This document shows positions 3,444-27,300 of a stretch of DNA of 29,705 nt, one piece after another. The stretch's first letter is position 1; each line of letters starts with the position of its first letter. Origin of the DNA: a virus; the IMG/VR virus record IMGVR_UViG_3300032288_001132, positions 1-29,705 of that record; one strand, written 5' to 3'. A program made the translations under genes and the position numbers. The notes under the pieces were generated by a model that saw nothing but the letters and a program-made list of their open reading frames with translations, made no database searches and was not told the origin of the DNA.

Positions 3444-3719
3444 ATGCAACCACTATTTGATCGAGTTAAGTTTAAACTTGTAACTAAGAAAAATATTCAG
3501 TCCGATGTATTACACACTGATTTCGTGTCTCGCAATGTGCCTGATGAAGGTATTGTTGTCTCTATGGGAGAAGAAGTGACAGAAGTTAAGATGAATGACC
3601 GCATTAAGTTTGCCGATAAGAAGGTGACATGGGTAATGGAGAATGATGTTAAATACGGTTTAATCGCTCAGGGAGATATACTTCTTGTAATAGAAGATGA
3701 AAACATACAGGAGGGTTAA
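3444..3719 (+). CDS. GroES-like (Cpn10) co-chaperonin
   Basis: The 91-residue protein aligns with GroES from end to end. It has PLFDRV at residues 3-8 (GroES PLHDRV); a stretch of about 20 residues in the place of the mobile loop, with DVL where GroES has the chaperonin-binding IVL; then EGIVVSMG for the GEVLAVG strand; VKMNDRIKF for VKVGDIVIF; and Y-GLIAQGDILLVIE for the C-terminal ESDILAIVE. The stretch after the GxVxxxG strand is shorter than in GroES. Co-chaperonins cap the GroEL-type barrel; phage versions such as T4 gp31 adapt it for capsid folding. The gene lies six bases after the spanin-like gene and overlaps the next by 23 bases. Weaknesses: loop residues differ from bacterial GroES, which is also true of gp31. 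Confidence 0.75.
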   Translation: MQPLFDRVKFKLVTKKNIQSDVLHTDFVSRNVPDEGIVVSMGEEVTEVKMNDRIKFADKKVTWVMENDVKYGLIAQGDILLVIEDENIQEG

Positions 3720-4073: not shown

Positions 4074-5081
4074 TTATTTTTTATACTTTTCGTAAAAATG
4101 CTTCCTACAAAGATTTTTTGAGTGATGTGGTTGATCACATTCTTCCATTAAACACTTTCTTACAACCTTGTTGTCTTGTACAGAATCAAGCATCCCCCAA
4201 TTAGGAATAACGCCTTTATTTTTAGATATTGCATTATACCTTTTTGAGTCTATTAATTCTAAAACAACATTAGGATAATATTTACTCATTCTTTTTAACT
4301 TCGTTTTAGACTTATTATCCATCCAACCTTTTACCTCTATGTAGTATATACTGCCGTCAATATTTGTAATCCTAAAATCAGGCAAATACGACCTAACACC
4401 TCTTTTAATTGCTTCAAACCAAAATGTTTCAGGCTCATGTTCCCAGGCAGCTATTTCTTTATTTTGTTTTAAAAATTCTAAATACGCAGCAATATTAGCT
4501 TCCCAAGAAGATCTTGCAAAAAAAATATTACCGCCTATTGATATAGTTCCTTTTTTGGATTTGCTATATATGTTTGCAGGGCTGTTTTTTAATCTGTAGT
4601 TCATTAGTTTTGACATTCTATTAGATACTGCTTGCCTGTGTTCAATGCTATTTAATTTTGAGTTTGGATCTTGCCACATTTTTTTTACTCGTTCAGACAT
4701 CTTTTGTTTTAACTCCTTACTATGTGTTTTACCCAACATTCCTCTAGGATGTCCATTTTCTTTTATCCATTTTTTATTTGTTATAGATATTCTTATTTTA
4801 TCCTCTTCGCTTGTTATTCTAAATTTATCAAACTTATCAGTCTTAACCAACTCTTTCATAAATGCAGAATGTCCAGGTCTTTTTTTACCTACTTTGGATT
4901 TAGCTGCTCTTCTTTGAAAATCTATAAAAAAATCAGAGTTTTTATTTAACCTGAGTTTTAATTGCGCTGCTTTTACCCTTATTTGCGACTCAGTTTTATT
5001 TAACTGTTCACAACACCACATTTTCCCCTTTTCAGGGTAATTTTTTATTAAAAAATCTATTTCTTCTTGAGTAAATGCCAT
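4074..5081 (-). CDS. Putative free-standing homing endonuclease (NUMOD3-like, PD-(D/E)XK)
   Basis: Counting from ATG 5081 (the frame also has a TTG at 5087) the product is 335 aa. Residues about 2-48 look like a Myb/SANT helix-turn-helix (FTQEEIDFLIKNYPEK, then SQIRVKAAQLKLRLN). About 110-130 resembles the NUMOD3 DNA-binding motif (GMLGKTHSKELKQKMSE). A PD-(D/E)XK nuclease core follows: SSWEANI with E194, LPDF with D235, and IEVKGW with E249 and K251. The C-terminus has a C-x4-C-x9-C-x2-H set (C310, C315, C325, H328), probably a zinc finger. Such layered proteins are typical phage homing endonucleases. The gene is visibly more AT-rich than its neighbours and stands alone at the convergent junction, as expected of a mobile gene. 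Its target cannot be seen. Confidence 0.8.
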   Translation of the reverse strand: MAFTQEEIDFLIKNYPEKGKMWCCEQLNKTESQIRVKAAQLKLRLNKNSDFFIDFQRRAAKSKVGKKRPGHSAFMKELVKTDKFDKFRITSEEDKIRISITNKKWIKENGHPRGMLGKTHSKELKQKMSERVKKMWQDPNSKLNSIEHRQAVSNRMSKLMNYRLKNSPANIYSKSKKGTISIGGNIFFARSSWEANIAAYLEFLKQNKEIAAWEHEPETFWFEAIKRGVRSYLPDFRITNIDGSIYYIEVKGWMDNKSKTKLKRMSKYYPNVVLELIDSKRYNAISKNKGVIPNWGMLDSVQDNKVVRKCLMEECDQPHHSKNLCRKHFYEKYKK

Positions 5082-5084
5082 ATG

Positions 5085-5092
5085 CAAATATA
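5085..5092 (-). promoter_or_regulatory. TAnnTTTG -7 box directly before the endonuclease start
   Basis: TATATTTG reads on the minus strand from 5092 to 5085, only three bases before ATG 5081. No TTG lies at the usual distance upstream. If used, transcription would start at or next to the ATG, giving a leaderless message. Confidence 0.45.
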
Positions 5093-5141: not shown

Positions 5142-5435
5142 TTATCCTTTTTTAGTGCTTTTCCCATCACGCCCATTCCTTCTACGATTAGCCGATTGAC
5201 TCTCTTTAACAACTTTGCCTGATTTAGTGTGGCTCATGTCTTTACCATCTTTATTACCTGTTGTACCAGCCTTACGGTTCTCCTTGTTCAGTTCTGAACG
5301 ATACTTACGTCTCGCGGGAGTAGAATGATATTCCTTGTTATACTCATCCTTCTTGGCCTTAGCCTTTGGATGTGACTGAAAGTATTTAGCACTCTCTGAT
5401 TTTCCTTTTTTAGTGCCTGCTAGTGAATTTCTCAT
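5142..5435 (-). CDS. Small, highly basic conserved phage protein
   Basis: The 97-residue product is very rich in Lys, Arg, Asn and Ser and poor in hydrophobic residues. I recognise the pattern YNKEYHSTPARRKYRSELNKEN followed by GKDMSHTKSGKVV and SANRRRN as a widespread small phage protein whose function I do not know. The second part faintly resembles the core of HNH-type proteins (Asp/His followed by Gly, Asn and Arg positions), but without Cys or a second His, so nuclease activity is doubtful. The charge suggests nucleic-acid binding or a packaged DNA-binding protein. It lies 24 bases downstream of the putative HNH nuclease gene on the same strand and has its own TAnnTTTG box. Confidence 0.7.
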   Translation of the reverse strand: MRNSLAGTKKGKSESAKYFQSHPKAKAKKDEYNKEYHSTPARRKYRSELNKENRKAGTTGNKDGKDMSHTKSGKVVKESQSANRRRNGRDGKSTKKG

Positions 5436-6241: not shown

Positions 6242-7468
6242 TTATCCAGTAATTAACCAGTTTTTACCAGTTGCTATTGCTCTTTCTCCAGCAGTCAATG
6301 CTGATGCACCCCAGTTTCTAAATATATTTATTGTTGCGCTTGTTGTTGCAGTTCTATCCACTAAATTGTTAAATATCTCTACAAGTGCAGTTCGTGAAAG
6401 TTGACAATCTTGTATGTTTATTGTTCTTGAAAATACCATTGGTATTCTATATAAAGAGTTACAACCTTGCGCAAATCCACTATAATCAGTTCCGCTTGTA
6501 GTTGTAATTGATGCAGTTGAAAACGCTGGAATAGAATTCAAACTTGAACAACCTATAATCATAGATGACATATTGTTGACGTTTGCAGTATTAAATAAAG
6601 GCAATGATTGTAATCTTGCGCAAGATGAAAACATACTTTGCGTAATTACTACGTTTGCAGTGTTGAATAAAGGAACAGAACGTAATGAAGCGCAAGAATT
6701 AAACATATTACCCATATTTGTCACGTTCTGTGTATTAAATAATGGTACTGATTCAAGCGAACTGCAATTTTGAAATATACTTTGCATAAGAATAACATTA
6801 CCAGTATTGAATAAAGGAACGCTTTTTAATGATGAGCAGTTTATAAACATTGACCTCATATCTGTTACGTTAGTGGTGTTGAATAAAGGAACAGATTGAA
6901 GTGAACTACAACTTGCAAAGAAACCTTGCAAATTTGTACATCCACCTATTGTTTTAATATATACTCGTTCAACGTACCTATGTGCTGGAACTCCATTTCC
7001 AAAAAGAATACTTGAACCACTTGTTGCATTCGGCATTGACAAAATGCAATCTAAAAATCCACTTGCATATGTAGTTGTTTGTGTAGGTGTTGATGGGTAT
7101 GAAATTTGAAAACTGCAAAATGTTAAATTCCCACTTACTGCGGTGACAACAACCATTGCTTGTTTGTATCCACGACTGCAAAGAGTTGAATTACTCGTGT
7201 CATATGTTGCATAATTATATTCGTGAATTGCATTTGAACCACTATTAACCAAATCAATAACTCCATCTCCCCAATCCACGCGATATTGACCAGCACTTGT
7301 ATTGAAGCGGAAAGAACAAAAATTGTTGCCTTCTGGAAAGATAGCGTGAAGACCTACAAATGTTTGGTCAGCACTTGTTATTCCTGTCGGCATAGGTAGC
7401 CAATCGGAAGGTCTAACCCATTCATCCCCACCGCTTGAAATTGGTAACTTAAAACTTCCTGTTGCCAT
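6242..7468 (-). CDS. Tail fibre-tip protein with BspA/DUF285-like repeats
   Basis: The 408-residue product looks like an exposed fibre or receptor-binding protein. Residues about 62-90 have a PKD-like pattern (YRVDWGDG then IHEYNY). From about 176 come Leu/Cys repeats: one partial unit and five 24-residue units (197-316), each with N-T-x-N-V, M-x-x-M-F, C-S-S-L and VPLF. This is the BspA-type leucine-rich repeat (DUF285), best known from bacterial surface proteins that bind other cells. The C-terminal 60 residues form a different small domain ending in GKNWLITG. The gene starts with a one-base overlap with the stop of the large fibre gene. The repeats could let the tip change by gain or loss of units. 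Assignment to the tail is by position; repeat recognition is strong. Confidence 0.75.
   Translation of the reverse strand: MATGSFKLPISSGGDEWVRPSDWLPMPTGITSADQTFVGLHAIFPEGNNFCSFRFNTSAGQYRVDWGDGVIDLVNSGSNAIHEYNYATYDTSNSTLCSRGYKQAMVVVTAVSGNLTFCSFQISYPSTPTQTTTYASGFLDCILSMPNATSGSSILFGNGVPAHRYVERVYIKTIGGCTNLQGFFASCSSLQSVPLFNTTNVTDMRSMFINCSSLKSVPLFNTGNVILMQSIFQNCSSLESVPLFNTQNVTNMGNMFNSCASLRSVPLFNTANVVITQSMFSSCARLQSLPLFNTANVNNMSSMIIGCSSLNSIPAFSTASITTTSGTDYSGFAQGCNSLYRIPMVFSRTINIQDCQLSRTALVEIFNNLVDRTATTSATINIFRNWGASALTAGERAIATGKNWLITG
6521..6880 (-). repeat. Five tandem 72-bp coding repeats (DUF285/BspA units)
   Basis: Five in-frame units of 72 bases encode residues 197-316 of the fibre-tip protein. 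The best kept part is the plus-strand form of VPLFNT (for example GTATTGAATAAAGGAAC near 6803), repeated every 72 bases. A degenerate unit precedes them (about 6881-6943). Confidence 0.75.
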
Positions 7469-10105: not shown

Positions 10106-10354
10106 TTATTGTTCTTCGGATGGTGTGTCACCCTTCTTCTTGTATCGCGTAAAGATACTCTCAATAACTGTAAGTCCCAAACCTCCCCCTGCAATAACTA
10201 AAAGGCCCTCGAACATATATTCAGGGCATTTATATTCTGTAAATGTAGCAATGTAGGCAAATGATATACAAACAAGAAGAGAGAGAATGGCACTTGCTCT
10301 CTTAGAGCTTGCATCTCCCTCGCTGCTAAGTAATGACTTAAGCCATTTCCTCAT
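10106..10354 (-). CDS. Small two-helix membrane protein, holin-like
   Basis: The 82-residue product has two membrane helices, about residues 20-39 (ASAILSLLVCISFAYIATF) and 47-68 (MFEGLLVIAGGGLGLTVIESIF), with a basic N-terminus and a Lys-rich C-terminus. Both ends would face the cytoplasm. That layout is found in class II-type holins and in small holin-like proteins of Bacteroidota phages. Holins open the inner membrane at a set time so the endolysin can reach the wall. It overlaps the preceding XhlA-like gene by four bases (ATGA) and that gene follows the endolysin gene directly, which supports a lysis cassette. Other small membrane proteins of the same size cannot be excluded. Confidence 0.7.
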   Translation of the reverse strand: MRKWLKSLLSSEGDASSKRASAILSLLVCISFAYIATFTEYKCPEYMFEGLLVIAGGGLGLTVIESIFTRYKKKGDTPSEEQ

Positions 10355-10601: not shown

Positions 10602-11093
10602 TTAACCGTAAATTTCAGTGAATAGTTTGTCAGAATATGGCAAATACACAGTCTTTCCGTTCTTCTTTGTAGCTATCAATACCTGCCCTCTATTGTGTAG
10701 TCTTGAGTATGAAACATGGATCCACTCAGGGTTAGATCCATTCTTAAATTCAGCGATGATCTGATCGAATTTTAAATTGTTTTTTATAAATAAGAAAAGA
10801 TCTTTGTTATTACCATTTTTGAATATATCGCAGTCGATATCTAGAGCCTCACCCTTCATGTGCTGCGATGTTTTAGATCCACCAACAGCCTTATTTAATT
10901 TGGGACTTCTATACCCTGAGGCAATCCCTAGAGGATTACCGACAAATTCACGACACGGATCAAATATTTTAGAGCAAACCTCCCTTAAGTTATCTCTAAC
11001 TTCTACTGGAGGATTGTTGTCAATACCTAGACGAGCTGCTGTAACTGATTTACTGCACTCCTCTAAAGTCGCGTATTTGCTTAGTGCCGTCAT
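10602..11093 (-). CDS. M15-family peptidase endolysin
   Basis: The 163-residue product carries the M15 metallopeptidase signature: GIASGYRSPKLNKAVGG (about 56-72), then SQHMKGEALDID with zinc ligands H78 and D85, and a C-terminal EWIHVSY with third ligand H126 and the nearby acidic E123. This is the short, single-domain form used by many phages to cut peptide cross-links or stem peptides in peptidoglycan. There is no signal peptide, so export would depend on a holin; holin-like genes follow at once. The gene's ATG overlaps the ferritin stop by one base. Exact bond specificity (L-Ala-D-Glu or D-Ala-D-Ala type) cannot be told from sequence reading. Confidence 0.88.
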   Translation of the reverse strand: MTALSKYATLEECSKSVTAARLGIDNNPPVEVRDNLREVCSKIFDPCREFVGNPLGIASGYRSPKLNKAVGGSKTSQHMKGEALDIDCDIFKNGNNKDLFLFIKNNLKFDQIIAEFKNGSNPEWIHVSYSRLHNRGQVLIATKKNGKTVYLPYSDKLFTEIYG

Positions 11094-11593
11094 TATCCAA
11101 ATAGATTACTTTCTAACATTAACATTTCAAATTTGCTTCCTAGGCTAACACCTTCTAACACATTGATCATATCACTGTATTCTGCAACTGCCTTTGTTTG
11201 CTTTGTTCTATATGTTTGTAGGAAATCAAATACACACAAATCCTCTGTCTTAAAAATCTTTACGCTAGTCTCCTCGTAAGCTTCATATAGAGCATACTCC
11301 ATCTCATAAGACTGAGAAATTACATCCGATAAATTAGAAAAAGTAAGAACAGGCTTTGTAATAGTCGGCAACTCAGGAGTTACATTCCAATTAACCAAGA
11401 AGTCTTCAATACCCTTAGCATGGCTGAACTCATCTTCTGATTCCTTAGCGAAAAAAGCACCTGCCTTAAAGAAACCTACGTTATTACACCAGTTAGATGC
11501 AGAACGATAAAAATAAGCAGCTGTAAACTCATCCTTCAAACGAGGGAGGAGTAAGTTTACAATCTCTGAAGATAATTTTACTGGTTTTTTCAT
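11093..11593 (-). CDS. Phage-encoded ferritin (FtnA-type) with complete ferroxidase centre
   Basis: From ATG 11593 (an in-frame GTG lies at 11599) the product is 166 aa, the usual length of a bacterial ferritin. The four-helix pattern is clear: DEFTAAYFYRSASNWC, FFAKESEDEFSHA, EMEYALYEAYEE and FLQTYRTKQTKAVAEY. The iron ligands E22, E55, H58, E99 and Q132 have the same spacing (33, 3, 41, 33) as E17, E50, H53, E94 and Q127 of E. coli FtnA. The third-site Glu equivalents (FtnA E129, E130) are Lys and Ala here. It should oxidise Fe(II) and store iron, or shield DNA and enzymes from oxidation. It is in the late operon, between the giant virion protein and the endolysin, overlapping the latter by one base. 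Family is strong; purpose in the phage is open. Confidence 0.85.
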   Translation of the reverse strand: MKKPVKLSSEIVNLLLPRLKDEFTAAYFYRSASNWCNNVGFFKAGAFFAKESEDEFSHAKGIEDFLVNWNVTPELPTITKPVLTFSNLSDVISQSYEMEYALYEAYEETSVKIFKTEDLCVFDFLQTYRTKQTKAVAEYSDMINVLEGVSLGSKFEMLMLESNLFG

Positions 11594-11598
11594 AGTCA

Positions 11599-11606
11599 CA
11601 AATTTA
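11599..11606 (-). promoter_or_regulatory. TAnnTTTG -7 box directly before the ferritin start
   Basis: TAAATTTG on the minus strand (11606 to 11599) stands five bases before ATG 11593. The nearest TTG upstream (11622-11620) is 13 bases away, too close for the usual spacing. It would give the ferritin-lysis genes their own start within the late operon, with almost no leader. Confidence 0.45.
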
Positions 11607-11614
11607 CACTTTTT

Positions 11615-14600
11615 TTATTCAACTGGCGTTATTTTGCCATTATAATCTTTATAAAAATAATCACTTGCTTTTGGCTCTTTACCTGGCACAGGAGTTACAT
11701 TATACTTATACAAATCATTGAAGTAAGTATTCATTGCTTTTATCGCTCCGATATTTTCAACTTTATTAGGATCAAGGGCGTTGTAAGAATCTTTATAAGG
11801 ACTGCTATCTATAAGCTTCTGTACACCTTCTTGTACATCTTTCGAGGTTGATAATTTAGAGGCAGATGAGAATTTACCTGTAGCACGTGCTGTTTGGTAC
11901 GCTTCAACCCACTTCTTCTTTTGCTCTTGGCTTTCAAAGTAGTCACTTGACATTGAAGGTTCCTTTGGAGCTTCTTCTGGTTTAGCAAGTTTTGCCTCTA
12001 CTTTAGCTTGATGCACTGCTAAGTCATAGTAATATTGGATTTGAGCAAATTTCTCTGCTTCTTGTTCAACATTATTTTCAGGCATTCTGTCTATACGCTC
12101 TTTATTTTTTTCAATTAGTTTGTTGAACTTATCGCTAGCTGAATTTGAAAGAGTTTCATTGAGAACTTTCTTTTGGTCAGAAGGCATTCCAGGAATATCA
12201 ACAGTTACGGATATCATTCCATTACCATCAATATCAAAATCAAGAACTCCTTCAACCATATTCTCTCCGTTCTTATTGAGAATAACTATATTCTGCTTGT
12301 CTTGAACATCTTTCTTTATAAGTTTAACTACATCCTTTATAAATGGCAAGCTAATACCTGTTACAACGCCAATTTGACTAGCTAAAGTAAGACCTCCAGC
12401 TAAGAATTTTCTGTACTCCACAACTTCAGGATCGTCAAAGAATTTACCCATTTGATCAAAGAAATCTGTAATAGTAGCTCCCTTGTATTTATCACTACCT
12501 GATAAGCGATCAAATTCTTTTTGAGCTTGGTTAGCAATAACATCAGCAGGAGGAATATACATTGTAGTTGCCATGTAAACAAACTTCTCTGCTGCTCCGT
12601 ATTGCCCTGTCTCTACAGGCTCTTGGAAGTACATAGAGGCTAAAGCATCAGCAGCCATTTGTTTCTGCTCCTTGTTATCCGTGCTATTGTATAAGTAATT
12701 CAAACATCCCACAGCAATAGCTCTACCATTGGCACCGTATTTAGATGTAGCAACTGTTGTAACAAAGTTTAACGTAGTATTAAATGCAGTATCCCATCTA
12801 CCTTCTTCTGTAGTGAACATCTCCATCTTTTTATCGCCCTTTTTCTTCTCCTCGTCATCACCAAGAGCAGACTTCATAGCAGCGTCAATAAGGTTGTATA
12901 TCAAGTAATATGAGCCTAGACGATATGAAGAGCCTATCATATCTTTAATTCCTCCTGATACATCTCTTCCTGTTCCTGCTTGCCAAGCACCTGAGACAAA
13001 GTTCTTGACGTCACGACCAACAAAGTTGTTGAACACATTTGTCATTTGAGCAAAGGTATCACTAGAACTTACCATTCCCTCTTCGTCCTTTATCTTCACT
13101 CCAGGGAATAACTTCTTAATATCAGTAATAGGATTTACCGCAACGAATTGTTTGCCTTGACCTTTGAACGCTCCTCCTTTGATTCTTTCAATCTGTTGGT
13201 TGGCATAAGACGAGGCTTGTTGCATAGCGTAGAAGTACTCATCATTCTCAAGGTGTTTAGCTTCATTGTATTTCTCTCCTGTTAACTCTTTAAATTTAGC
13301 ATCAAATTCAGCTTTCCATTCACCTGCTGTAAGTGGACCTGAAATATTCATAAGCATATTAACGGTATTATTGTAGAAAGAAAATAAATTATTCTTATCT
13401 ACTTTTCCATTGCCGTATTTTGCGTATGACTTCATAGTCCATCCCATAAACTGTACAGGACTATCAAATTTTTCCATTAACTTTAAAGCCTCTCTCGCTT
13501 GAACAGGATTTACAGGACTAGTAAGTGCCTTAGGCCCAATCTTAGCAAAATTACTAAGTTGATTAAATATACCTGAAAGTAAGTTTGTCCCAAATTCAGC
13601 AGGAGTTCTCACCTTACCAATCAAAGCGTATGAAGCAAAACCTCCAAATGCTCTGGTGATAACATTCTTAGCAGACTTCTCTAACTCAAAGTCAACACGC
13701 TTTCTGTTCCAGTCTTGAATAGCTTGTAGTAAAGCCTTCTCATCAGGATTAGCATTCTCCTTAGCGTTTCTAAATACTTCATTTGTCTGTTGAATAGCAT
13801 CGTTCAAATACAAGTCACGAGACGCTTCGTAGATTTGAGTTGCCATTACTCTGTCAAGATTCAAGTCGATAGCATCTGTAGGAGTCTCAAGCACACGAGC
13901 GTATGAAGATCCTGCACGAAGACCACCAACCTTACCACCTGTTCCTGCTACTAAATCTGCATCTTGAGAGGAAGATTTTCCTAGAGGCTTTCTTGGGTAG
14001 TGTACAGCACTGATTTCTCCGTTAATACCACGGATAGCATTGGCACTTACAAGAGCCTCTCCAATTTCTTTCTTATTTATTCTTTGAGTAGCCTCGTATA
14101 GCTTATACTCAGCCTCACTCATTACAGACTTAGGGTCGTTTAAGAAAGCTTCGTAAACCTTTGTGTAATCCAACTTGCCGTTTGTTTGGAAGCGAGGATC
14201 ATTACTTAATTTAGAGTAGATATCTTTAACGATATGAAGAGAGCCATCATTGTGGTAAGCCTTCTTAACATCAGCCTTCTCTAAGTTCTCGCCCCAGAAG
14301 TCTTTTGTATCAGCCTTCTGCTCCATAGCCTTACTAGCGTAGTCAAAGATGCTTGATAGCATAGCTACACGAGTGGAGTAATACTTATCAGCTTTTACAT
14401 TGATATTCTCACCACGCTTAAGTATAGAACCTTTGTCATATTCTGATCTCTTAACAAGAACATCTCCTTTGAACTTACTCTCTTGACGAGCCTTGTAATA
14501 ATCATCCATCAATCTCTCCGTATTCTTACGCATCTTAGTGAATGCCGAGTTGATTGGTTGAATAACATTATTATAGATAGGTCCTGAAGAAAGTCCAAGT

Positions 14601-17600
14601 ACACGTTCTATTTGAGCAGGCTCCGTAAGTTTAAGTAAGTTTCTCAACTTAGTTAAATCAGGAGAATTTAATGAGTCGTATATTTTTGATAATTGCTTAA
14701 CAATGCTCTCTCCCTTCTTCTGTCCTCTTGTCTCTGCCTTGTTTACAATCTCACGTAATTCTTTCTCAGCTACAAAACCATCAGCCATACGATCCATTAC
14801 CTCTGTCAGCTTGACAATATCTTTAACATCTAAAGACATTAGCATCTCAGGCTTTGTAAGCATGATCTCTAATCGCTTGTAAACTTCTGCTTGTTGGCCA
14901 ATGAATCCTGACTTATCAACATAATTAGACATATCAACAATGTCATCGATCATGTTTTCTTTCAAGTCATTAATTTGATCCTGGTGCTGTTGTTCGTAAA
15001 CTCTAAGACCATTTTCCTTAGTGTATAAGTCATTCAAAGCATCGTTGTACTCATCCTCTGTAACCTTACCGTTATTGTAGAGAGAGTCAAGTATTCTCTT
15101 CGCTTTGTTAACCTTCTTTACAAATTCATTGTACTCTGATAAATCATCAATAGTAGAGTTCTTAATATCATTAACCGCATCATTGTAATCAGACTTCTCC
15201 AACTTAGAAGGGATTTCGTTGTAGTCATTTAACACACGAGTAGCAAGATTCATATCCATGCGGCTATGGTCAGGTACACTTTGATTTAAACGAGCTACAG
15301 ATTCAGCATATGCCTTTAACTCCTGATCGTTCATAAGAGGAGTGCCATCAGAGTTCACAAGAGGAAGAGATAAATATCTTCTCACCGCCTCTGTGTACTG
15401 GTTGTGTCTCTTCTTGCTCGCTCCCTTCTTATCCTTCTCAAGATCGTTAATCATTTGAGCGTACTCCTGATCGGCAACTACCTTCTCAACATAATCTGTA
15501 AGTGCCTTCATTTTAGTGTCCGTCATATCAGCGACAACTCCTGTTGCTCTTGATACGATAGCCTTTAATTGAGTAGGAGAAATCTTAGCAGAAATGCCAG
15601 AAGTCTTTAAGTATTCTTTCACCCAATTGCGTACCAATTGACGCATCTCCTTATCGTCTTTCTTATCCTGTTTAGCTTTTGCTACAGCCTCTTTAAGAGC
15701 AGCGTCCATAGCCTTAAGCTTGTCCTTCATGATCTCTTTATCTGTAGTTGTAACAACAGGCTCATTCTTTCTTGCTTCAGCTGAATCCTTAGACTTAATC
15801 TTATCAACAGAGTTCTTAACTGAGTCGCGTAGTTGGTCCACTGTAGAGAACTCCATTCCTTGAGATGTCGCATCTCCTAAAGCTTTCTCAATAGCATCAG
15901 CCTTACTCATGTTCTCAACATCCATGTAAGATTTAGCATCACCTGCTATCTTAGTTGCCAATTGATCCATCACGCTAGCCTTAGCCTTTTCAACTAGATC
16001 CTTCTTAAGAGTTTTGTCTTGAGACTTGAAGAAGCCAACTTCGTTATTAATAAAATCAGAAAGAGAATTTAACGCATTGTCTAAACCAGCACCCGATCTA
16101 ATATCCTCCACAGCTTTATCTGTAGCGTTTACTATCATCTCTTCTGCCTGTGCCTTAACAATTTTCTCAGCCTTTCCAACGATACGATCAAAAGTTGCCT
16201 CATCAATGATACCCTCCTTAATCATTTGATTCTTCACATTTTGTGAAGCAGTGTAAACACCTTTACCCTTCAACATTTCTTCGTTGATAAGATTGGCAAT
16301 AGTTGGAGCGATTTGCTCATCCATTGCTCTCTTAAGATCGTTTACAGCCTTGCTCTTCTCTTGAGCAGTTAAGTTCTTATAGAAATCTGAGTTCTTAAAT
16401 GCCTCAATACCCTTTGCAATTGCCTCTGTTAGAGAAGCTCCTGCCTCAAGTGCTTTGGCAACAACTTCTAAGAACGGATCAATAGGATTCATCGCAAGAC
16501 CGCCTCTCTTTCCTTGTCTAATTAAATCAGCAGCCTCTCTTAATCCACGTGCTATGCTTTGAGATGCAGATACAGGTTTTATTCCTGAACCATATGGAGC
16601 TATCTTTTGACTTTGTTCACTTGTTTTTAAATCTTCACCTCTTAATTTATCTGGAAGAATATCATACGCATTTATTTTCTTGTTAGGAACCCCAACAACC
16701 TCCCCCATCAAATCATTTTCATATGTTGAATGCTCTGACTTGCCACCTAATTTTTCAGGCTTTAATACAAGCATTATATCATTTTGTTGAAAATTATTAT
16801 CAGCGTAAAATCCGTCTCTAAGTTCATCAACATTCACCAAAGCGTCTCTATCTTTTAATACTTTATAAAGACTACTATTAGGTTTTTTAGAAGCATCAAC
16901 AAGTTCATTTAAAAATTTCTTTCTACCTGTTCCTATCTTTCCTTTTTTGCCGTTTACGGAAGCGTCTTCAATCAAAGATTCCCACGAGTCATGAGCTTCT
17001 AATACTTCTCTAATTCCTTTAACTGGCTTATTAGCGAGAACTTCTTTTTTAAATGTGTTATAATCACCAATTTTTTCTTGGAATACTTGGAACACAGCCT
17101 TATTAAACAATTTGCTCTTCTCAGGAGATCCGCTAATTATAAATATATAATCTGCCTTTTTAATATTTTTGTTTAATGTTGTTGCTTCAACACCACTTGC
17201 CCAAATAACATTCTTTTCTCTGTTTTTAGGATCCAAAGCATAGGATGGGCCTGCATCTAAATAATGCTTTTCTCCTGTTTTTGAATCCATGTAATAACCT
17301 CTTCCTAACTGATCGGCTACCCAAAACCATACGGTCTCACCTTTTGCCTCAATGTCTTTAATTAAAGCATCGATATCAATTAAGTCCTCTTCTTTTACAA
17401 AAGAAAGGTTATGACCATCAGGATTTACTCTTACAGGAGTTCCTTTAACCTTATCTGTATTGTTTAATTGAAGAGGAGATTGATTAATCACCTCATCCAT
17501 AAATTCTTCAGCAATATCTTCGTTATAGTCATCACCCAATTGCTGTTTAAGATATTCTTTTGCCTTGTTTATTGCATTTACAAAACTCTCACCAGCCTCT

Positions 17601-20600
17601 ATAGAGGTAGCAATAAGTTCAACGGCACCATCCCAAATGGCAATAGGAATACCAAGAGCAGCACTATAAGCTCTACCACTCTCACTCTTAAGCCTTCTTA
17701 CTTGATCAGCAATTGACTTTCTTTCCTCTTGTGCTTTAGCATCTACATCAGATTCTCTTGCAGGATAAGCCTCTCTCTGAGCATCTACATAAGTATCACG
17801 GTAGGCTATCGCCTCATCGTACTGCTCATTTGTAAACTGCTTCTCTTCAATGTTTAACTTGTTCTCAGGATCGTAGATCATAGCAACAACATCGGGAGTG
17901 CCGTGTTTTGCTTTATTCCAACCATCTGGAGCAAACTCCTCATTGAATGGAAGACGAGAGACGATTCTAAATCCGTTCTCTTTGTATATCTTAGTAAGAT
18001 ATATATCGAAGTTGTCCAACTTAATACCACCTGCTTTAATAGCTTCTTTTAAGAGAGTGTCTGAGACACGTTTCGCCTCGCTATCAGGATTTTTATAGAC
18101 AGCTTTAATATCACCATCAGCTCCAACAACAGCCTGGCCATCTTCATTCGTAATGATTGTGCCATTCTCCACATCTTCAACCTCAGGTATGCTAACTGAC
18201 CAATAAGTTTCAGGATCATTGTTTTTAACCTCGGTTAATTTATCAACATAGGCTTGAGACTCTTCTGTTGAATTTACTTTTTTCTTCCCACCTTCTTGGG
18301 CAACTTCTTCCCCTTGGACGCTTGGTTCCACTCCTTTACGTTTACGCCCTGTTTCTCTAACTTCGCTCGGTTGGCTTGGAAGAATTTCTGTTGTGCTTGG
18401 CTCTTGTACGGCATTTGTTTTTGGTTTTTGTAGTTCTGGTTGTGTTGGTATTTCTCCTTTCTTAGGTGCCTTGAGAGAGTTTAAAACATCCTCTCTAATT
18501 TTTTCAGCTTCAATAAATCCAGGATCTTTTTTACCTAGACCTCTGTTCTTAGCACCTAATTCTATAGCTTCGGCTCTATATAATTCAGATAGCACTTCAG
18601 CTTTTTTCCCGTTACTCAAATCTGTATAACCTGGCATAGACTGCAAACCAACTTCCATAGCCTCAAGCTCTGTTAATTGTTTGTCTAACTCGTTTAATTC
18701 TTCTTGAGAGTTAAATGATGCATTTCTTAATATATAGTTTTTGTTTTGAGAGAAACTTAACAATACATTCTGTTCAACTGCACTTCTCTTACCGCCTCTT
18801 TGGAATGGAATTAATACCGCTGTTATAGACGCTCCACTTTCCCCTGATGTAATAATAGAATTAACATCGAAATCTTTATTAAATGAGGCGTTATCCCATG
18901 CTAAGTTGGCAGCCATCCCACCTAATTGATTGGCAAAGTCTTCAAGCGACTCCTCTGCAAACTCCCCTGCTGTTCTATTTAAATGTTTTTGAAGACTAGG
19001 TATGATAGCCTTACTTAACATACCCATTGCTTCTGGACGAGTTAATTTCCCTTTAGACCATTCTTTTAATATAATTTTAGTGGAAGGTTTTAAAGCGTCA
19101 TAAAAACTCTTAGAGTCGGGGACTAATTGATTAATTCTACCAAGAACCATTGACATAAACAAACCCCATGCTGCCGCCTGATCATCATCTAACCCACTAG
19201 CTTTAGCTTGGTCAGTTTGATCCGAGAGCATAAGTAGAGTTGTTAATGCAGGACCACCTACAAGTCCAGACACAGCGTATGCTCCTAAATTACTGATACC
19301 TGCTGTAGTATTTAACCAGAATTTTTGAGTGCCAGAAAGACCTTCCATATCTTGAGGTTGATAGGCATTCATATCCTTAATCATCTCATCGATATATGCA
19401 GACCATTGATCAAACAATTGAGTTTCGTCTCCTAAGGCATCAGCAAGGATATCAGGCACTTTACCAATTTTAATAATAGTAGATAATCCAGGAATGAATA
19501 AATTCGTTCCTCCATATAACATTGTATAAAAGAAAGAAGTAAAGAAGTCCTCTGACTTCATTCTATCCTCTGCTATCTTTTGATTTCTTTTATCGTTCTC
19601 ATCTTCCTCTTTCAGATCCTGCATTGCATTCTTTTGGTAGAATGAAGTTTCTGTATTTTGAAGATTACCTAGTTTCTGACCAAGGCGAGTCAATTCATTG
19701 ATATTCTCTGGAGTCGCTCCTGTAGCCTCTGCTGCACTTGCGATTTGCTCCTTAGCTAAATTGATTTTAAGAATAGCATCACTGAACTTAACTTGATCAC
19801 TCTGCTTAATTTTAGCAGAAGGGTTAATATTGCCATTCTCATCTAAGGCCCCAATAGACTTAAGAACTTCAAATTCTTTAGCTACTTGTTCTAATGGTTT
19901 TTTAGCCAATTTCTTATACGAATTTATGTCAACAGTATTTGAAAGAGTCTGATACTTAGTTTGTAAATAACGCATGGTTGTGTTGACAGCTTGACTGCGA
20001 ATATTCATGATAGCTCGTTTGTCAGCATCACTTAATTCCTTTACAGGCATTGTTTGGAAACCACCTGTCTTTTTCTTATAATAATCATAAGTAGACAACA
20101 TATCAGCTGCTGCTTTCTCATGATCTGTATTTCTTAAATATGTAGCGTAGTCTTTAATGTTTTGTTCGTACACATTGAGGAGTGCCTGATTTAGATTCTC
20201 CTTCTGCTTGTACAATTTCATCTTTTCCTCATAAGATATCTTAGGTTGAGCATCTAAAATCTTATCGATATTGTCTAACTCTAATTGAATGTCATACGGA
20301 GTTCTTATCTCAGTACTGTAAGCATTATTATAGCCGTTCTGATGAAGGTTTTTGTAGTCTGCATCAGCCTGTTTATTGCTTATCTCAGCAAGAGAAATTT
20401 CTAATTCTGATCCTCCTTGTTGAGGAGCAAACTTGCTGTCTTTAACTTTTTCGTAAATAGCTTGATTTGCAGGATTACTTAAGAAGTCGCTTTTATATCT
20501 TTTCACTGGCTTCCCCGTTGCAAGAGCTTGAGCGTTTTCCATTGTAGATCTAACTTCTTTAGCTTTCTCTTCTTCCCATTTCTGTAAGAAAACTTTCGAT

Positions 20601-22060
20601 CCGTTTTTATAAAAATTATATCTTTCAAGTTCAGTTAAATCGTTAACATCACCCAATTCTAATTCGCCTGTCTCAGGGTTGGTAGTAATAAATTCTATAG
20701 AGGCTCTTTTCTTTTTTTCTTCTTGCTTCTGCTCTTGTTCTGTTACAATTTCGTTATCCTCTTTTGTATGAACATATGACGGGAAAGCTAATTGTCTTGG
20801 TCCTTTTGGAGCCATATTTTCCTGAGGCATAGAAGCATCAAACTGCTGTTGTGCTTGCTTCTCTTCCTCACTTAAACTAGGATCAATATTGTTAATAAAA
20901 TCTTCCGCATCGTACTCTTCCTCCTTTTGCCAAGGGCGATCAACTTCTTTATTAATGATATTATTCCATAGACTCTCTGCTGCGTTATACAGATTAGAGG
21001 ACTTTAATTTGCCAATTAGAGTATTAGAAACAGGAATTTCACGATCTTTATTATCCCCACTGATGATAGTAGGTTCCATTATTTCGTCCTGCGTAAAACC
21101 ACCAAAGGCACGGTCTGCAATTTCTTTTGCAGCTGGATTACCTGCCGTCTCTAAATAGTTTTGATACCCTTGTTTATTACCCTCTCTTTGTAGTTGAATA
21201 AGATCCTTAAAGGCATCAGAGTTTTTTAACTGAACAGTGTAAGGATTTTTAGCAATGATATTAGAATAATCTTCACTTCTCTTATCCATTGAACGAACCT
21301 TGCCGTTCTCATATATATAAGCCTTATCACTTGCTGAACTTGGAGTATATGTTATAACAGGTACCTCAAATGCAGTATCTTGCTTCTTTCTTTTGAACGT
21401 AGTTCCTGCAACAGCGTTAGCGTCAGTTACAATCTTATTTACTTTATTAGCATCTGGCTCCTGCTCAGAAATAACACTACCCACTACAGTAGTTTTATCT
21501 AAGTTATTAACATCTGTATTTGGAGTTTGAGCCGCCTGTGTTTCTAAGACTTGCTCTTCAATAGATTTCTCAGGAGCGACAAGTTCAGGAGTCTCAGGCA
21601 TTTCAGGAGCTTCAGGAGGAGCCTGCAAATCAGTAACAGGCATATCAGGTTTTTCCGTTGCCGCTTTCTTAGGCTTTTGGATTATTTGACCTGTCTTCTT
21701 GTTGAACCAATAAGTTCCTCTATCTTCAAAACCTTGTTTAATAAATGCCTCATCAGGACCTAATTCTCTATTAGATCCAGGACCTCCATCGGCCTCAGGC
21801 TGGCTAGCACCAACCGCTTGGGTTTCCTCTGTAATCTCTGATGGCTGCTCTGTAGGCTGAGATAATTCGTCCTCGCCATCCTTTTTTTTTTTAGGAATGT
21901 CGTAGGCGTTGATGTCTTTACCTAAACTAGACATCACTTCATCTAAACGCTTTAAGAAATTAGCATCTTTTAACTTTGCATTAAAAGTATCGTAGTCATC
22001 TTTAATATTTACAAGAGGGTTACCCTTTAATTCATCGTATAGATCTTTTGTGCTAGCCAT
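11615..22060 (-). CDS. Giant virion-associated polyvalent protein, 3481 aa
   Basis: This is the largest gene, in the place of T7 gene 16. Residues about 25-180 are a Pro/Glu/Gln-rich linker. Hydrophobic stretches lie near 838-866 and 923-943. About 1270-1410 resembles a GNAT-like acyltransferase-type domain of phage polyvalent proteins (ADGDIKAVYKNP, a GGIKLDNFD segment, GFRIVSRLPFN, PDVVAMIYD). About 1530-1810 is a second module recalled from giant phage proteins (VWFWVADQLGRGYY, LDAGPSYALDP, IFIISGSPEKS, HSTYENDLMGEVVGVP), unnamed. About 1850-2620 is charged and coiled-coil-rich. About 2800-3250 is a helical, partly hydrophobic C-terminal domain (FASYALIGKVRTPAEFGTNL). Such proteins are packaged, ejected with the DNA and may cross the envelope and counter host responses; that is inference. 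I see no RNA polymerase, transglycosylase or protease motif. Confidence 0.75.
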   Translation of the reverse strand: MASTKDLYDELKGNPLVNIKDDYDTFNAKLKDANFLKRLDEVMSSLGKDINAYDIPKKKKDGEDELSQPTEQPSEITEETQAVGASQPEADGGPGSNRELGPDEAFIKQGFEDRGTYWFNKKTGQIIQKPKKAATEKPDMPVTDLQAPPEAPEMPETPELVAPEKSIEEQVLETQAAQTPNTDVNNLDKTTVVGSVISEQEPDANKVNKIVTDANAVAGTTFKRKKQDTAFEVPVITYTPSSASDKAYIYENGKVRSMDKRSEDYSNIIAKNPYTVQLKNSDAFKDLIQLQREGNKQGYQNYLETAGNPAAKEIADRAFGGFTQDEIMEPTIISGDNKDREIPVSNTLIGKLKSSNLYNAAESLWNNIINKEVDRPWQKEEEYDAEDFINNIDPSLSEEEKQAQQQFDASMPQENMAPKGPRQLAFPSYVHTKEDNEIVTEQEQKQEEKKKRASIEFITTNPETGELELGDVNDLTELERYNFYKNGSKVFLQKWEEEKAKEVRSTMENAQALATGKPVKRYKSDFLSNPANQAIYEKVKDSKFAPQQGGSELEISLAEISNKQADADYKNLHQNGYNNAYSTEIRTPYDIQLELDNIDKILDAQPKISYEEKMKLYKQKENLNQALLNVYEQNIKDYATYLRNTDHEKAAADMLSTYDYYKKKTGGFQTMPVKELSDADKRAIMNIRSQAVNTTMRYLQTKYQTLSNTVDINSYKKLAKKPLEQVAKEFEVLKSIGALDENGNINPSAKIKQSDQVKFSDAILKINLAKEQIASAAEATGATPENINELTRLGQKLGNLQNTETSFYQKNAMQDLKEEDENDKRNQKIAEDRMKSEDFFTSFFYTMLYGGTNLFIPGLSTIIKIGKVPDILADALGDETQLFDQWSAYIDEMIKDMNAYQPQDMEGLSGTQKFWLNTTAGISNLGAYAVSGLVGGPALTTLLMLSDQTDQAKASGLDDDQAAAWGLFMSMVLGRINQLVPDSKSFYDALKPSTKIILKEWSKGKLTRPEAMGMLSKAIIPSLQKHLNRTAGEFAEESLEDFANQLGGMAANLAWDNASFNKDFDVNSIITSGESGASITAVLIPFQRGGKRSAVEQNVLLSFSQNKNYILRNASFNSQEELNELDKQLTELEAMEVGLQSMPGYTDLSNGKKAEVLSELYRAEAIELGAKNRGLGKKDPGFIEAEKIREDVLNSLKAPKKGEIPTQPELQKPKTNAVQEPSTTEILPSQPSEVRETGRKRKGVEPSVQGEEVAQEGGKKKVNSTEESQAYVDKLTEVKNNDPETYWSVSIPEVEDVENGTIITNEDGQAVVGADGDIKAVYKNPDSEAKRVSDTLLKEAIKAGGIKLDNFDIYLTKIYKENGFRIVSRLPFNEEFAPDGWNKAKHGTPDVVAMIYDPENKLNIEEKQFTNEQYDEAIAYRDTYVDAQREAYPARESDVDAKAQEERKSIADQVRRLKSESGRAYSAALGIPIAIWDGAVELIATSIEAGESFVNAINKAKEYLKQQLGDDYNEDIAEEFMDEVINQSPLQLNNTDKVKGTPVRVNPDGHNLSFVKEEDLIDIDALIKDIEAKGETVWFWVADQLGRGYYMDSKTGEKHYLDAGPSYALDPKNREKNVIWASGVEATTLNKNIKKADYIFIISGSPEKSKLFNKAVFQVFQEKIGDYNTFKKEVLANKPVKGIREVLEAHDSWESLIEDASVNGKKGKIGTGRKKFLNELVDASKKPNSSLYKVLKDRDALVNVDELRDGFYADNNFQQNDIMLVLKPEKLGGKSEHSTYENDLMGEVVGVPNKKINAYDILPDKLRGEDLKTSEQSQKIAPYGSGIKPVSASQSIARGLREAADLIRQGKRGGLAMNPIDPFLEVVAKALEAGASLTEAIAKGIEAFKNSDFYKNLTAQEKSKAVNDLKRAMDEQIAPTIANLINEEMLKGKGVYTASQNVKNQMIKEGIIDEATFDRIVGKAEKIVKAQAEEMIVNATDKAVEDIRSGAGLDNALNSLSDFINNEVGFFKSQDKTLKKDLVEKAKASVMDQLATKIAGDAKSYMDVENMSKADAIEKALGDATSQGMEFSTVDQLRDSVKNSVDKIKSKDSAEARKNEPVVTTTDKEIMKDKLKAMDAALKEAVAKAKQDKKDDKEMRQLVRNWVKEYLKTSGISAKISPTQLKAIVSRATGVVADMTDTKMKALTDYVEKVVADQEYAQMINDLEKDKKGASKKRHNQYTEAVRRYLSLPLVNSDGTPLMNDQELKAYAESVARLNQSVPDHSRMDMNLATRVLNDYNEIPSKLEKSDYNDAVNDIKNSTIDDLSEYNEFVKKVNKAKRILDSLYNNGKVTEDEYNDALNDLYTKENGLRVYEQQHQDQINDLKENMIDDIVDMSNYVDKSGFIGQQAEVYKRLEIMLTKPEMLMSLDVKDIVKLTEVMDRMADGFVAEKELREIVNKAETRGQKKGESIVKQLSKIYDSLNSPDLTKLRNLLKLTEPAQIERVLGLSSGPIYNNVIQPINSAFTKMRKNTERLMDDYYKARQESKFKGDVLVKRSEYDKGSILKRGENINVKADKYYSTRVAMLSSIFDYASKAMEQKADTKDFWGENLEKADVKKAYHNDGSLHIVKDIYSKLSNDPRFQTNGKLDYTKVYEAFLNDPKSVMSEAEYKLYEATQRINKKEIGEALVSANAIRGINGEISAVHYPRKPLGKSSSQDADLVAGTGGKVGGLRAGSSYARVLETPTDAIDLNLDRVMATQIYEASRDLYLNDAIQQTNEVFRNAKENANPDEKALLQAIQDWNRKRVDFELEKSAKNVITRAFGGFASYALIGKVRTPAEFGTNLLSGIFNQLSNFAKIGPKALTSPVNPVQAREALKLMEKFDSPVQFMGWTMKSYAKYGNGKVDKNNLFSFYNNTVNMLMNISGPLTAGEWKAEFDAKFKELTGEKYNEAKHLENDEYFYAMQQASSYANQQIERIKGGAFKGQGKQFVAVNPITDIKKLFPGVKIKDEEGMVSSSDTFAQMTNVFNNFVGRDVKNFVSGAWQAGTGRDVSGGIKDMIGSSYRLGSYYLIYNLIDAAMKSALGDDEEKKKGDKKMEMFTTEEGRWDTAFNTTLNFVTTVATSKYGANGRAIAVGCLNYLYNSTDNKEQKQMAADALASMYFQEPVETGQYGAAEKFVYMATTMYIPPADVIANQAQKEFDRLSGSDKYKGATITDFFDQMGKFFDDPEVVEYRKFLAGGLTLASQIGVVTGISLPFIKDVVKLIKKDVQDKQNIVILNKNGENMVEGVLDFDIDGNGMISVTVDIPGMPSDQKKVLNETLSNSASDKFNKLIEKNKERIDRMPENNVEQEAEKFAQIQYYYDLAVHQAKVEAKLAKPEEAPKEPSMSSDYFESQEQKKKWVEAYQTARATGKFSSASKLSTSKDVQEGVQKLIDSSPYKDSYNALDPNKVENIGAIKAMNTYFNDLYKYNVTPVPGKEPKASDYFYKDYNGKITPVE
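21882..21892 (-). other. A11 homopolymer inside the giant gene
   Basis: Eleven T on the plus strand (A on the coding strand) encode the Lys run in PKKKKDGE near residue 56. It is a slippery stretch for polymerase and ribosome, and a likely place for real length variation or sequencing error. Confidence 0.8.
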
Positions 22061-24332: not shown

Positions 24333-27300
24333 TTACTGTATTATCGGTTCTGATGCAGCGAAGTTAACACCTACGTTCATAAGTATCTTTTTGACGCTTG
24401 TATCAGAGTTTGTTAAAGTATGCTTTAAGACATATCCTCTAAGCTCTCTACCATTCATTCTCGCCTCTAGAGGAGAGGTAAATGCAGGATCGTTTAAGTC
24501 TCTGAAATATCTTGAGACGTAGTACCCTTCTTGATTCTTAAGTACTGCCGAAGGTATATTACTTGACATACCTAATGGATATGTCTGATTCGCAGGGACA
24601 GAAACCTCTACATAGAATGGGTAGTTAGCCTGTTGTAAGTGAGTGTAGAATCTTTTTACCACAGTTGGATTATCATTGAATATAAAGTCCAATTGTTGAG
24701 TTCTAGAAGTACCTAAGAAAGTTAATTCCGAACCAAAGTTTTCCTCATATAATTCACCAAATGTGAATATGTTTCCACCTCCTGTAGAATAAGCTCTGCT
24801 ACCTAATTGAGTGGCAAAAGACACGCCATGCTGAAGACGGGTAATCCATCTATTTCTCTCGTATGAATAAGAAACACCTTCTCCAGCAGCTTCTTCAAAA
24901 TCACTGTAGTAGTATAAAGTAACACCTGGACCTGTCTCATTGTCAAAACCTATTGGAGGATTAGATACTAACACCTGAGTAGATCCTGTTCCTGCATTAT
25001 ATGATACCGCGGATATCACAAAAGAACCATTGTTTTCAGGATTGCTCGATCCGTCTATAAAAATAGTATCACCTGAAGATAATACACTTGTATAATTGCC
25101 AACTAGGATTATCTCGTTTGGCTTAGTCATAGCAAAAACAGGTATCTCATTTTGAGTAGGAAGGTTGCTAGACACCTTATCGCTTACATAAAATGTATAC
25201 TCATTATTGTTACGGTTGATGTGAGACCATATGTTGGCATTATTATAACCTCCATATACGTTATTTATTCTTGCGGTTAAATCTCGAACCCCTTTAGAGA
25301 ATTTCTTATCCTGTTCACATATGTTAATAACTCCTCCTGCTGTCACCACTGCAAAAGCTGCGTTGTAGTAATCATAGAAGAATACATTATTCTCTATACG
25401 AGAAACAGATCCTGCGTGTATTGTACCGTAGTCATCATCGTGAGGGCGGATACCTGCAAATGTCTTGTCGGAAAGGATTACATTATTTGTTCCGTCACCA
25501 TTAAGAGCAAATGCCTTTTGGATATACACAGAGGTAATCTTCCTGTCTTGGAATGACTTTAATATATCACCTACTTGTATCAGTTTATTAATACCACCCT
25601 GCTCCTCTTTAAGAGCTACATTATTGAAGAACTCAACTCGGCTCAGACCGTTTATTTGAGTATTGTCAATAAATGCATTAGTATGATATATAGATGATTT
25701 TAAATGCTGTCTCTTAGCAAATGGAGAGTAAAGAGCAATACGTCCTTTATTATTCCAATTGGAAATGTAGTAATCAGAGTAGTGAGGATCTTCGCAAAAC
25801 CAAGCCCCTAGATTATCATTAGCATCTCCAATATTTTCTAAATCTCCTGTATACGCATATCCTGTTGCCATAATACGCTGACGGATATAAACGTCACCGC
25901 AATCGAGATTTAATTCAGCGTTAGTTATATTTAATACTTGATTTGTATCACCTCCATGTACACGATCTTCAGTATGAGGATTTAATATAGGAAACTCTAT
26001 ACCCGTCTCAAACCAAGGATCATTTTCACTTTGTTTTTTAGGAGTGTAAATCTCAATCTGAAAACCTCCACTCACTAAAGTCTTATTTGTATTCGTGCCT
26101 GTATACTGTAAATAATCACCAAGTAAATTAGAATCAAAGTAATTTACTGTAATCATTTCCTCTCCTTCAGGGCCTCCTGCTGGATCGTACAGCATAACAT
26201 TCAACTCTTGAATCTTGTTTATATTGTCTGTTACATATTCAGGGTAATAATGGTAGTTGTCATAATCCACAAAACCATTTAATACTTTAACTTGAAGTCC
26301 TGTTATATCTAAAGTTCCTGTTGGTGAATATACTGGACCTAGTGGAGAAAATATTACTCTTATATAAAATTTAATTTGATCTCCAGCTGTTAAAGTAGGA
26401 TTGTTTGTGTGATTATTCGTAGATATAATTAATGGGTTTGACGGATTGTTATAGGTGTTATTCATTCCAATTTGAGTAAATGCACCTCCATTAATTGTAA
26501 CTCCTACTTGCAATGAAGCTGAAGATGGATCAGCATAGGTGCCATCCCATGTAAATTCCACATTGCCTAGAAAATCAAAATTATAAACACCTGTAGAAGG
26601 CACTGTATATATACCTGTTATAGGATCGAAATCTGATCCAGGATCGTAAGCTTCTGTTAAATAAGTAGCTAAATCAAAAATGTAAGTATTTGTAACAACA
26701 AGTGATGTCGTTATAGAATTATTTCCATTTGCTAATAAAACATTATTACTTTCCTTTTCAAACAAAGCTCTTTTTCTAACAAAACGAACCAAATCTCCTT
26801 GTGATGGATTTTGATTTATTGAAGCTCCTACAAATTGGCCATTATCATCTGACTTATAATAATCTTCTAAAGTGAGAGATATTGTATTATCAGGATTGTA
26901 AATAACAGATTTAACGGAACGCTGTTGGAAATTAGCGATATTTGTAGATGGCTTATATAATATTTGATAATTTGTTGCCCACACAGGTGGTTGAAAATCA
27001 TTTGCTATTTCCAATAACATTTGAGTATAATAAGGCTGTCTATTAAACCCTAGATTGTTATTTAAATTGTTGTCAGATAAATCTGTATTAAAAGGGTTGT
27101 ATACTTCTCCTGCTGGAATTAATATGGCTGTTCCGTCACGATTCGCTCTGTCATAATATTGAATTGCAAATTCATGATTGGCACCTGTTTTAAAAGTTCT
27201 TACAGATTTGTTATTTCTAAGTATAGTAATCTTAGAGGTATAATTATTTGTATTTACTGCTGGAGGTGTTCCGCTAGGTATTGTTGATATTTGGTTTTCT

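Follow-up and report, generated by a model that had tools for sequence, protein, structure and literature searches.

The window, that is, the whole stretch of viral DNA that we analysed (29,705 nucleotides), carries on its minus strand a gene for a giant 3481-aa protein, followed by a ferritin gene, an M15 endolysin gene, genes for two small proteins, and further late genes. The main features are the following.

10106 to 10354, minus strand: small membrane-type lysis-cassette protein, 87-98% identical in most type I loci and 63-70% identical in loci L014 and L016
10351 to 10599, minus strand: small lysis-cassette protein, holin-like by a weak match (phrog_175 holin, E 0.03), at the same position in type I relatives
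10602 to 11093, minus strand: endolysin of the peptidase M15 type, 163 aa (PF08291, E 7e-17; phrog_894 endolysin, E 9e-34)
11093 to 11593, minus strand: ferritin gene (PF00210 match, FtnA alignment, AlphaFold2 model and fold matches)
11599 to 11606, minus strand: TAAATTTG, a -7 box of Bacteroidota type, unique in the window and 5 nt upstream of the ferritin ATG
11615 to 22060, minus strand: giant 3481-aa protein upstream of the ferritin, with homologues of giant size in the corresponding position of type I loci
24333 to 28811, minus strand: probable virion structural protein of 1492 aa, 31% identical to flavophage structural proteins

The ferritin reading frame (minus strand, 11093-11593) starts with ATG and encodes 166 aa, with a GTG in the same frame two codons further upstream (11599). 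A match to Pfam PF00210 that lies well outside chance (E 3.4e-19; 69.6 bits, cut-off 24.5) places the product in the ferritin superfamily. The top phmmer match was H. pylori ferritin (E 1.6e-16), and the E value was 3.5e-27 when the protein was run as a family profile. An AlphaFold2 model built from 12 window and viral-locus sequences (pLDDT 88) has five helices, at residues 9-39, 42-68, 88-115, 119-146 and 154-165, the last of which occupies the position of helix E, giving the four-helix bundle plus short fifth helix expected of an Ftn protein. The fold comparison proposed in the first-pass annotation returned an Ftn-type helical fold: the ferritins of E. coli, H. pylori and C. jejuni ranked top in Foldseek (TM 0.87-0.91), and VIA-align superposed the model on C. 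jejuni ferritin with Z 22.8 and 1.6 A over 160 residues. Scores were below the cut-offs of the NCBIfam equivalog for non-heme ferritin, PRK10304 (51.1 bits; cut-off 178), and of bacterioferritin, TIGR00754 (17 bits; cut-off 125.55). A Dps protein would have an inter-subunit ferroxidase site and no helix E, whereas here the ligands are in-subunit and of Ftn type, and helix E is modelled. Alignment and predicted structure confirm the gene as encoding a genuine non-heme (Ftn-type) ferritin.

The first-pass annotation had described a phage ferritin with an intact ferroxidase centre whose ligands keep exactly the spacing of E. coli FtnA, and both points hold: E17, E50, H53, E94 and Q127 of FtnA (L205 in our alignment) align with E22, E55, H58, E99 and Q132 at a constant offset of +5 at all five positions. 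FtnA Tyr24 aligns with Tyr29, completing in the alignment the in-subunit A/B ligands and tyrosine that characterize Ftn. The annotation was also right that the glutamates of the third (C) iron site of prokaryotic FtnA have no equivalents. E49, E126, E129 and E130 align with D54, K131, K134 and A135, of which only the first is a conservative change, and the third site is therefore lost. The same pattern runs through the family. Across 67 distinct viral proteins, with identity to the window protein down to 44%, the A/B-site residues (the five ligands and Tyr29) are invariant in all 67, and neighbouring positions vary freely. The position of E130 is Ala or Ser in all 67, just 3 retain E126, and none has Trp122. 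In comparison, all 23 alignable comparison ferritins (21 cellular, and 2 from fecal contigs filed as phage) keep E126, E129 and E130. The intact di-iron centre and the loss of the third site are family-wide, which is stronger evidence than a single sequence provides. Two-iron chemistry is well supported by these alignments and, given the loss of the third site, turnover and O2 stoichiometry may differ from those of prokaryotic FtnA.

Ferritin relatives were found on 14, 32 and at least 228 viral contigs in three scans, the viral set being gathered with motifs of the family itself. In a tree with long branches and a small cellular sample that did not include chromosomal ferritins of Flavobacteriia, a branch with 100/100 support set all sampled viral ferritins apart from the cellular ferritins, from which a long branch separates them. 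Support was 99/98 when two very divergent phage ferritins were added (L372 and L373, from records G033 and G034). These second ferritins, at 27-31% identity, keep the same ligands, show the same third-site loss, and are again located between giant proteins. The window ferritin and that of L002 differ by dN 0.049 and dS 1.06, those of L017 and L018 by dN 0.011 and dS 0.246, and dN is far below dS in all viral pairs with finite dS. These estimates show purifying selection on the viral branch.

A first genome scan for cellular relatives, using motifs of the viral family, found none; in a second, pattern-based scan the best identities were 29-34% among the matches listed. Bacteroidota ferritins on plasmid-collection records share 16-21% identity with the window protein. 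Among the matches listed, the best cellular identity is about 33%, and the data do not support a recent capture of the gene from a host cell. A tblastn search of the INPHARED isolated phages with three queries found no member of the viral clade, and one with H. pylori ferritin as query recovered only other ferritins, some on short contigs of fecal origin and the rest in two Staphylococcus phage records. The ferritins in the latter (OR850087.1 and OR845001.1) match the query just as an S. aureus plasmid-collection record does, and are possibly host DNA inside phage records. The viral ferritins appear to form a large clade found so far only in viruses, with no close relative among the cellular sequences covered.

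The phage group to which the window belongs is indicated by its 1492-aa protein, which is present in 20 of 30 long ferritin-bearing records. About a quarter of this protein aligns, at 31% identity, with annotated virion structural proteins of Flavobacterium elemo phages, and it has further matches in Cellulophaga and Tenacibaculum phages. These matches to flavophage structural proteins point to phages of Flavobacteriia. The 3481-aa giant (11615-22060) has segments in common with giants of otherwise different loci, e.g., L187, L031 and L166. Searches of Pfam with the giant neighbour proteins gave no family match, and the window's giant is a mosaic of modules without Pfam matches. It is probably a virion-module protein. 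An 11-kb structural gene ends the late operon of an elemo phage; its likeness to the giant is positional only, with no homology detected. Tenacibaculum phage Gundel_1, a podovirus (PMC8776804), has an annotated structural protein that one giant neighbour protein matches. Among the genes given for the annotated late regions of the elemo phages and Gundel_1 there is no ferritin. Elsewhere in the window, a gene at 6242-7468 contains five copies of a 72-nt spaced repeat encoding "NTxNVTxMxxMFxxCxSLxSVPLFNT" units and resembles a DUF285-type protein annotated in an elemo phage late region, and a GroES-like co-chaperonin gene on the plus strand (3444-3719; phrog_3188, E 4e-5) is shared with most type I relatives.

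The sequence TAAATTTG fits the -7 box consensus TAnnTTTG and occurs once in the window when both strands are scanned; no -33 box was seen at the usual spacing from it. It is retained in all 12 testable type I relatives, 4-5 or 22-24 nt before the ferritin ATG. In the window, 5 of 16 minus-strand genes have the consensus in the 30 nt upstream of their start, an enrichment over the 0.25 expected (P ~2e-4). At positions 5092, 5447 and 11606 (minus strand) it lies 3-5 nt before the ATGs of 4074-5081, 5142-5435 and the ferritin, respectively, a distance that suggests leaderless late messages. In L296, AAATAACAAAATGACGTAAATTTGTAAGTATGAAAAAGCC runs directly into the endolysin gene, and in L004 the near-identical AAATAACAAAATGGTGTAAATTTGTAAATATGAAAAAGCC runs into the ferritin; the box therefore belongs to the lysis transcript. 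The first-pass annotation had assigned the ferritin its own -7 box. The box does stand 5 nt before the ATG, but it is that of the lysis transcript, since it fronts the endolysin in L296. Judged by these arrangements, the comparison of relatives shows the ferritin to be optional in this phage group; where present, it heads the lysis transcript. Late expression of the ferritin would fit its operon position.

A census of 75 distinct viral ferritin loci found the ferritin always among late or virion-module genes, wherever neighbours could be named. A giant or large protein is next to it in 45 loci, mostly starting with a motif like MAxPCxITFxGKxYSYEEFAxMLHDGLL. An endolysin is next in 14, of two unrelated types (M15, n = 5; the other, n = 9, matching phrog_3000 and an endolysin PHROG). 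The ferritin lies between a Mu-type portal gene and a MuF-like gene in 8 loci (families confirmed by HMM in L022 and L025), after a portal gene in 3, and before a head maturation protease in 1; the neighbours in 4 were left unclassified. In loci such as L022 and L025, the first 4 nt of the ferritin gene lie within the portal gene, which leaves no room for a -7 box after the latter, so the ferritin is probably co-transcribed with structural genes. Across L002-L016, the M15 and phrog_3000-like endolysins replace each other after the ferritin, and the ferritin and the downstream small membrane protein stay.

These data do not bear out the earlier view that the ferritin is coupled to the endolysin gene. 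Endolysins of two unrelated types account for only the 14 loci above, and the suggested search for ferritin beside M15 endolysins in viral genomes yields only 5 of the 75. The single shared base that the annotation had noted is real (11093, within TAATG), but 4 of the window's 15 minus-strand junctions have a 1-base overlap, which makes this one ordinary. Moreover, L294 and L296 have a giant, an endolysin and small proteins of the same kind as the window's, and ferritin is absent from both entire records, that of L294 being a 33-kb piece; such relatives, with the same lysis cassette and no ferritin, are what the annotation had named as counting against it. That ferritin and endolysin form a functional unit, with the ferritin acting in or timing lysis, therefore seems highly improbable: they have a -7 box in common and overlap by 1 or 4 nt in type I loci, but other genes adjoin the ferritin in 61 of 75 loci, one endolysin type can replace the other beside a retained ferritin, and L294 and L296 do without the ferritin. 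As a general arrangement such a unit was rejected, because the fetched flanks, some of them short, contained ferritin in only 3 of 77 viral loci with a related endolysin and lacked it in the other 74. The ferritin adjoins lysis genes only in the window's own phage group, and the endolysin is best explained as a late-operon neighbour of the ferritin rather than a mechanistic partner.

We propose, with about even confidence, that the ferritin is a late-made two-iron ferroxidase and iron sink that protects the infected cell or the assembling virions. As a soluble member of a virus-specific branch, with a predicted five-helix Ftn fold and a complete, invariant A/B di-iron site, it would be synthesised late, alongside lysis and structural proteins, assemble into a cage, and oxidise Fe(II) at its two-iron centre. 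It would thereby draw down free iron in the dying cell, using O2 or H2O2, and phage DNA and proteins would suffer less Fenton damage in the time up to lysis. The invariance of the A/B site, the fold match, dN far below dS, the late or virion-module location, and the -7 box common with the endolysin favour this role, and the Dps and Mn-catalase of Bacteroidota gut phages provide a precedent for protection (PMC8008677). The lack of ferritin in two near relatives, L294 and L296, counts against it. In addition, ferritins with only two sites can release H2O2, and such release would make protection alone a weaker explanation.

The neighbours of the ferritin also suggest a role in the particle, as a virion component that is synthesised together with the giant and minor head proteins, is packaged or ejected, and has as its target iron or oxygen in the particle or during entry. 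A giant protein is next to it in the 45 loci noted above, one such neighbour matches the Gundel_1 structural protein, 8 loci have the ferritin between portal and MuF-like genes, and the divergent ferritins of G033 and G034 occupy the same place between giants. This recurrence leaves a virion-associated role open, but we consider packaging unlikely: no packaging signal or fusion is visible in the ferritin, the type I ferritin is the first gene of a lysis transcript, proximity within an operon is no proof of packaging, and a 24-mer ferritin cage would be too wide for a phage tail channel. A role in managing iron as a nutrient, either by storing or redirecting host iron for a phage-replication enzyme or by loading virions in the manner of the widely discussed Ferrojan-horse idea, is permitted by the complete ferroxidase site, which would allow iron storage, and is similarly improbable. 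The late location is ill-suited to replication enzymes, and the ferritin itself has no tail link. Two families were sought as iron-enzyme partners, the class I ribonucleotide reductase small subunit (PF00268) and the PF13640 2OG-Fe(II) oxygenase, and neither was found in 30 long ferritin-bearing relatives, so the earlier suggestion that iron is stored for a host enzyme gains no support; nor does the suggested supply of iron to virions gain any here. The loss of the third site and Trp122 across a viral branch that lies far from cellular ferritins could instead reflect a four-helix protein repurposed for a structural or regulatory role without iron handling; this is very unlikely, since six A/B-site residues are invariant in 67 of 67 proteins and in the divergent branch while adjacent positions vary freely. 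We find it unlikely that an old virus-owned ferritin has been kept beside giant and minor-head genes as a virion-associated or ejected ferroxidase or a dedicated late iron sink, with a simplified two-iron chemistry not seen in its prokaryotic relatives.

Whether as iron sink or otherwise, the viral ferritin resembles the FtnA of E. coli, H. pylori and C. jejuni in its helix E fold and in the spacing of the A/B ligands and Tyr24. Unlike them, it lacks the third site (E126, E129, E130) and Trp122, is 22-29% identical, scores below the NCBIfam non-heme ferritin cut-off, and falls in a separate clade (100/100 in the sampled tree). PHROG 16594, which has no assigned function, is the same family (E 9e-12), as are BFVD phage proteins annotated as ferritin, e.g., A0A6J5MFB8 from an uncultured Caudovirales phage; a BFVD fragment is 40% identical to the window ferritin, with TM 0.91 by target. 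A literature search gave no match for phage-encoded ferritin, and found no analysis of site conservation, context or phylogeny of the PHROG 16594 or BFVD ferritins. Other ferritin-like superfamily genes are known from Bacteroidota gut phages (Gratiaviridae and Flandersviridae), in which Dps and Mn-catalase are proposed to lower iron and oxidative stress (PMC8008677); these belong to other families of the superfamily, whereas the window ferritin is of the Ftn type: it has helix E, and its di-iron site lies within the subunit. Bacterioferritin genes, which are likewise virus-borne, iron-oxidising and of ferritin type, have been reported from viruses of lake sediment (PMC10904782) and Flandersviridae (PMC11780533). 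They are annotated as bacterioferritin, and the lake-sediment one, for which purifying selection was reported, is described as Thermoproteota-derived (PMC10904782), in contrast to the window's branch, which has no close relative among the cellular sequences searched. Given these reports, the kind of gene is known. The novelty lies in an Ftn-type branch that is broad, unified and apparently confined to viruses, and in which the metal site is simplified throughout.

Until now, phage genes of the ferritin family had been noted as auxiliary genes of scattered occurrence. The present ones make up a deep, apparently virus-only clade, kept in several phage groups beside virion genes. Natural ferritin-plus and ferritin-minus relatives exist with the same kind of lysis cassette and, if the ferritin is active, whether phages manage iron and oxygen late in infection would become a directly testable question.
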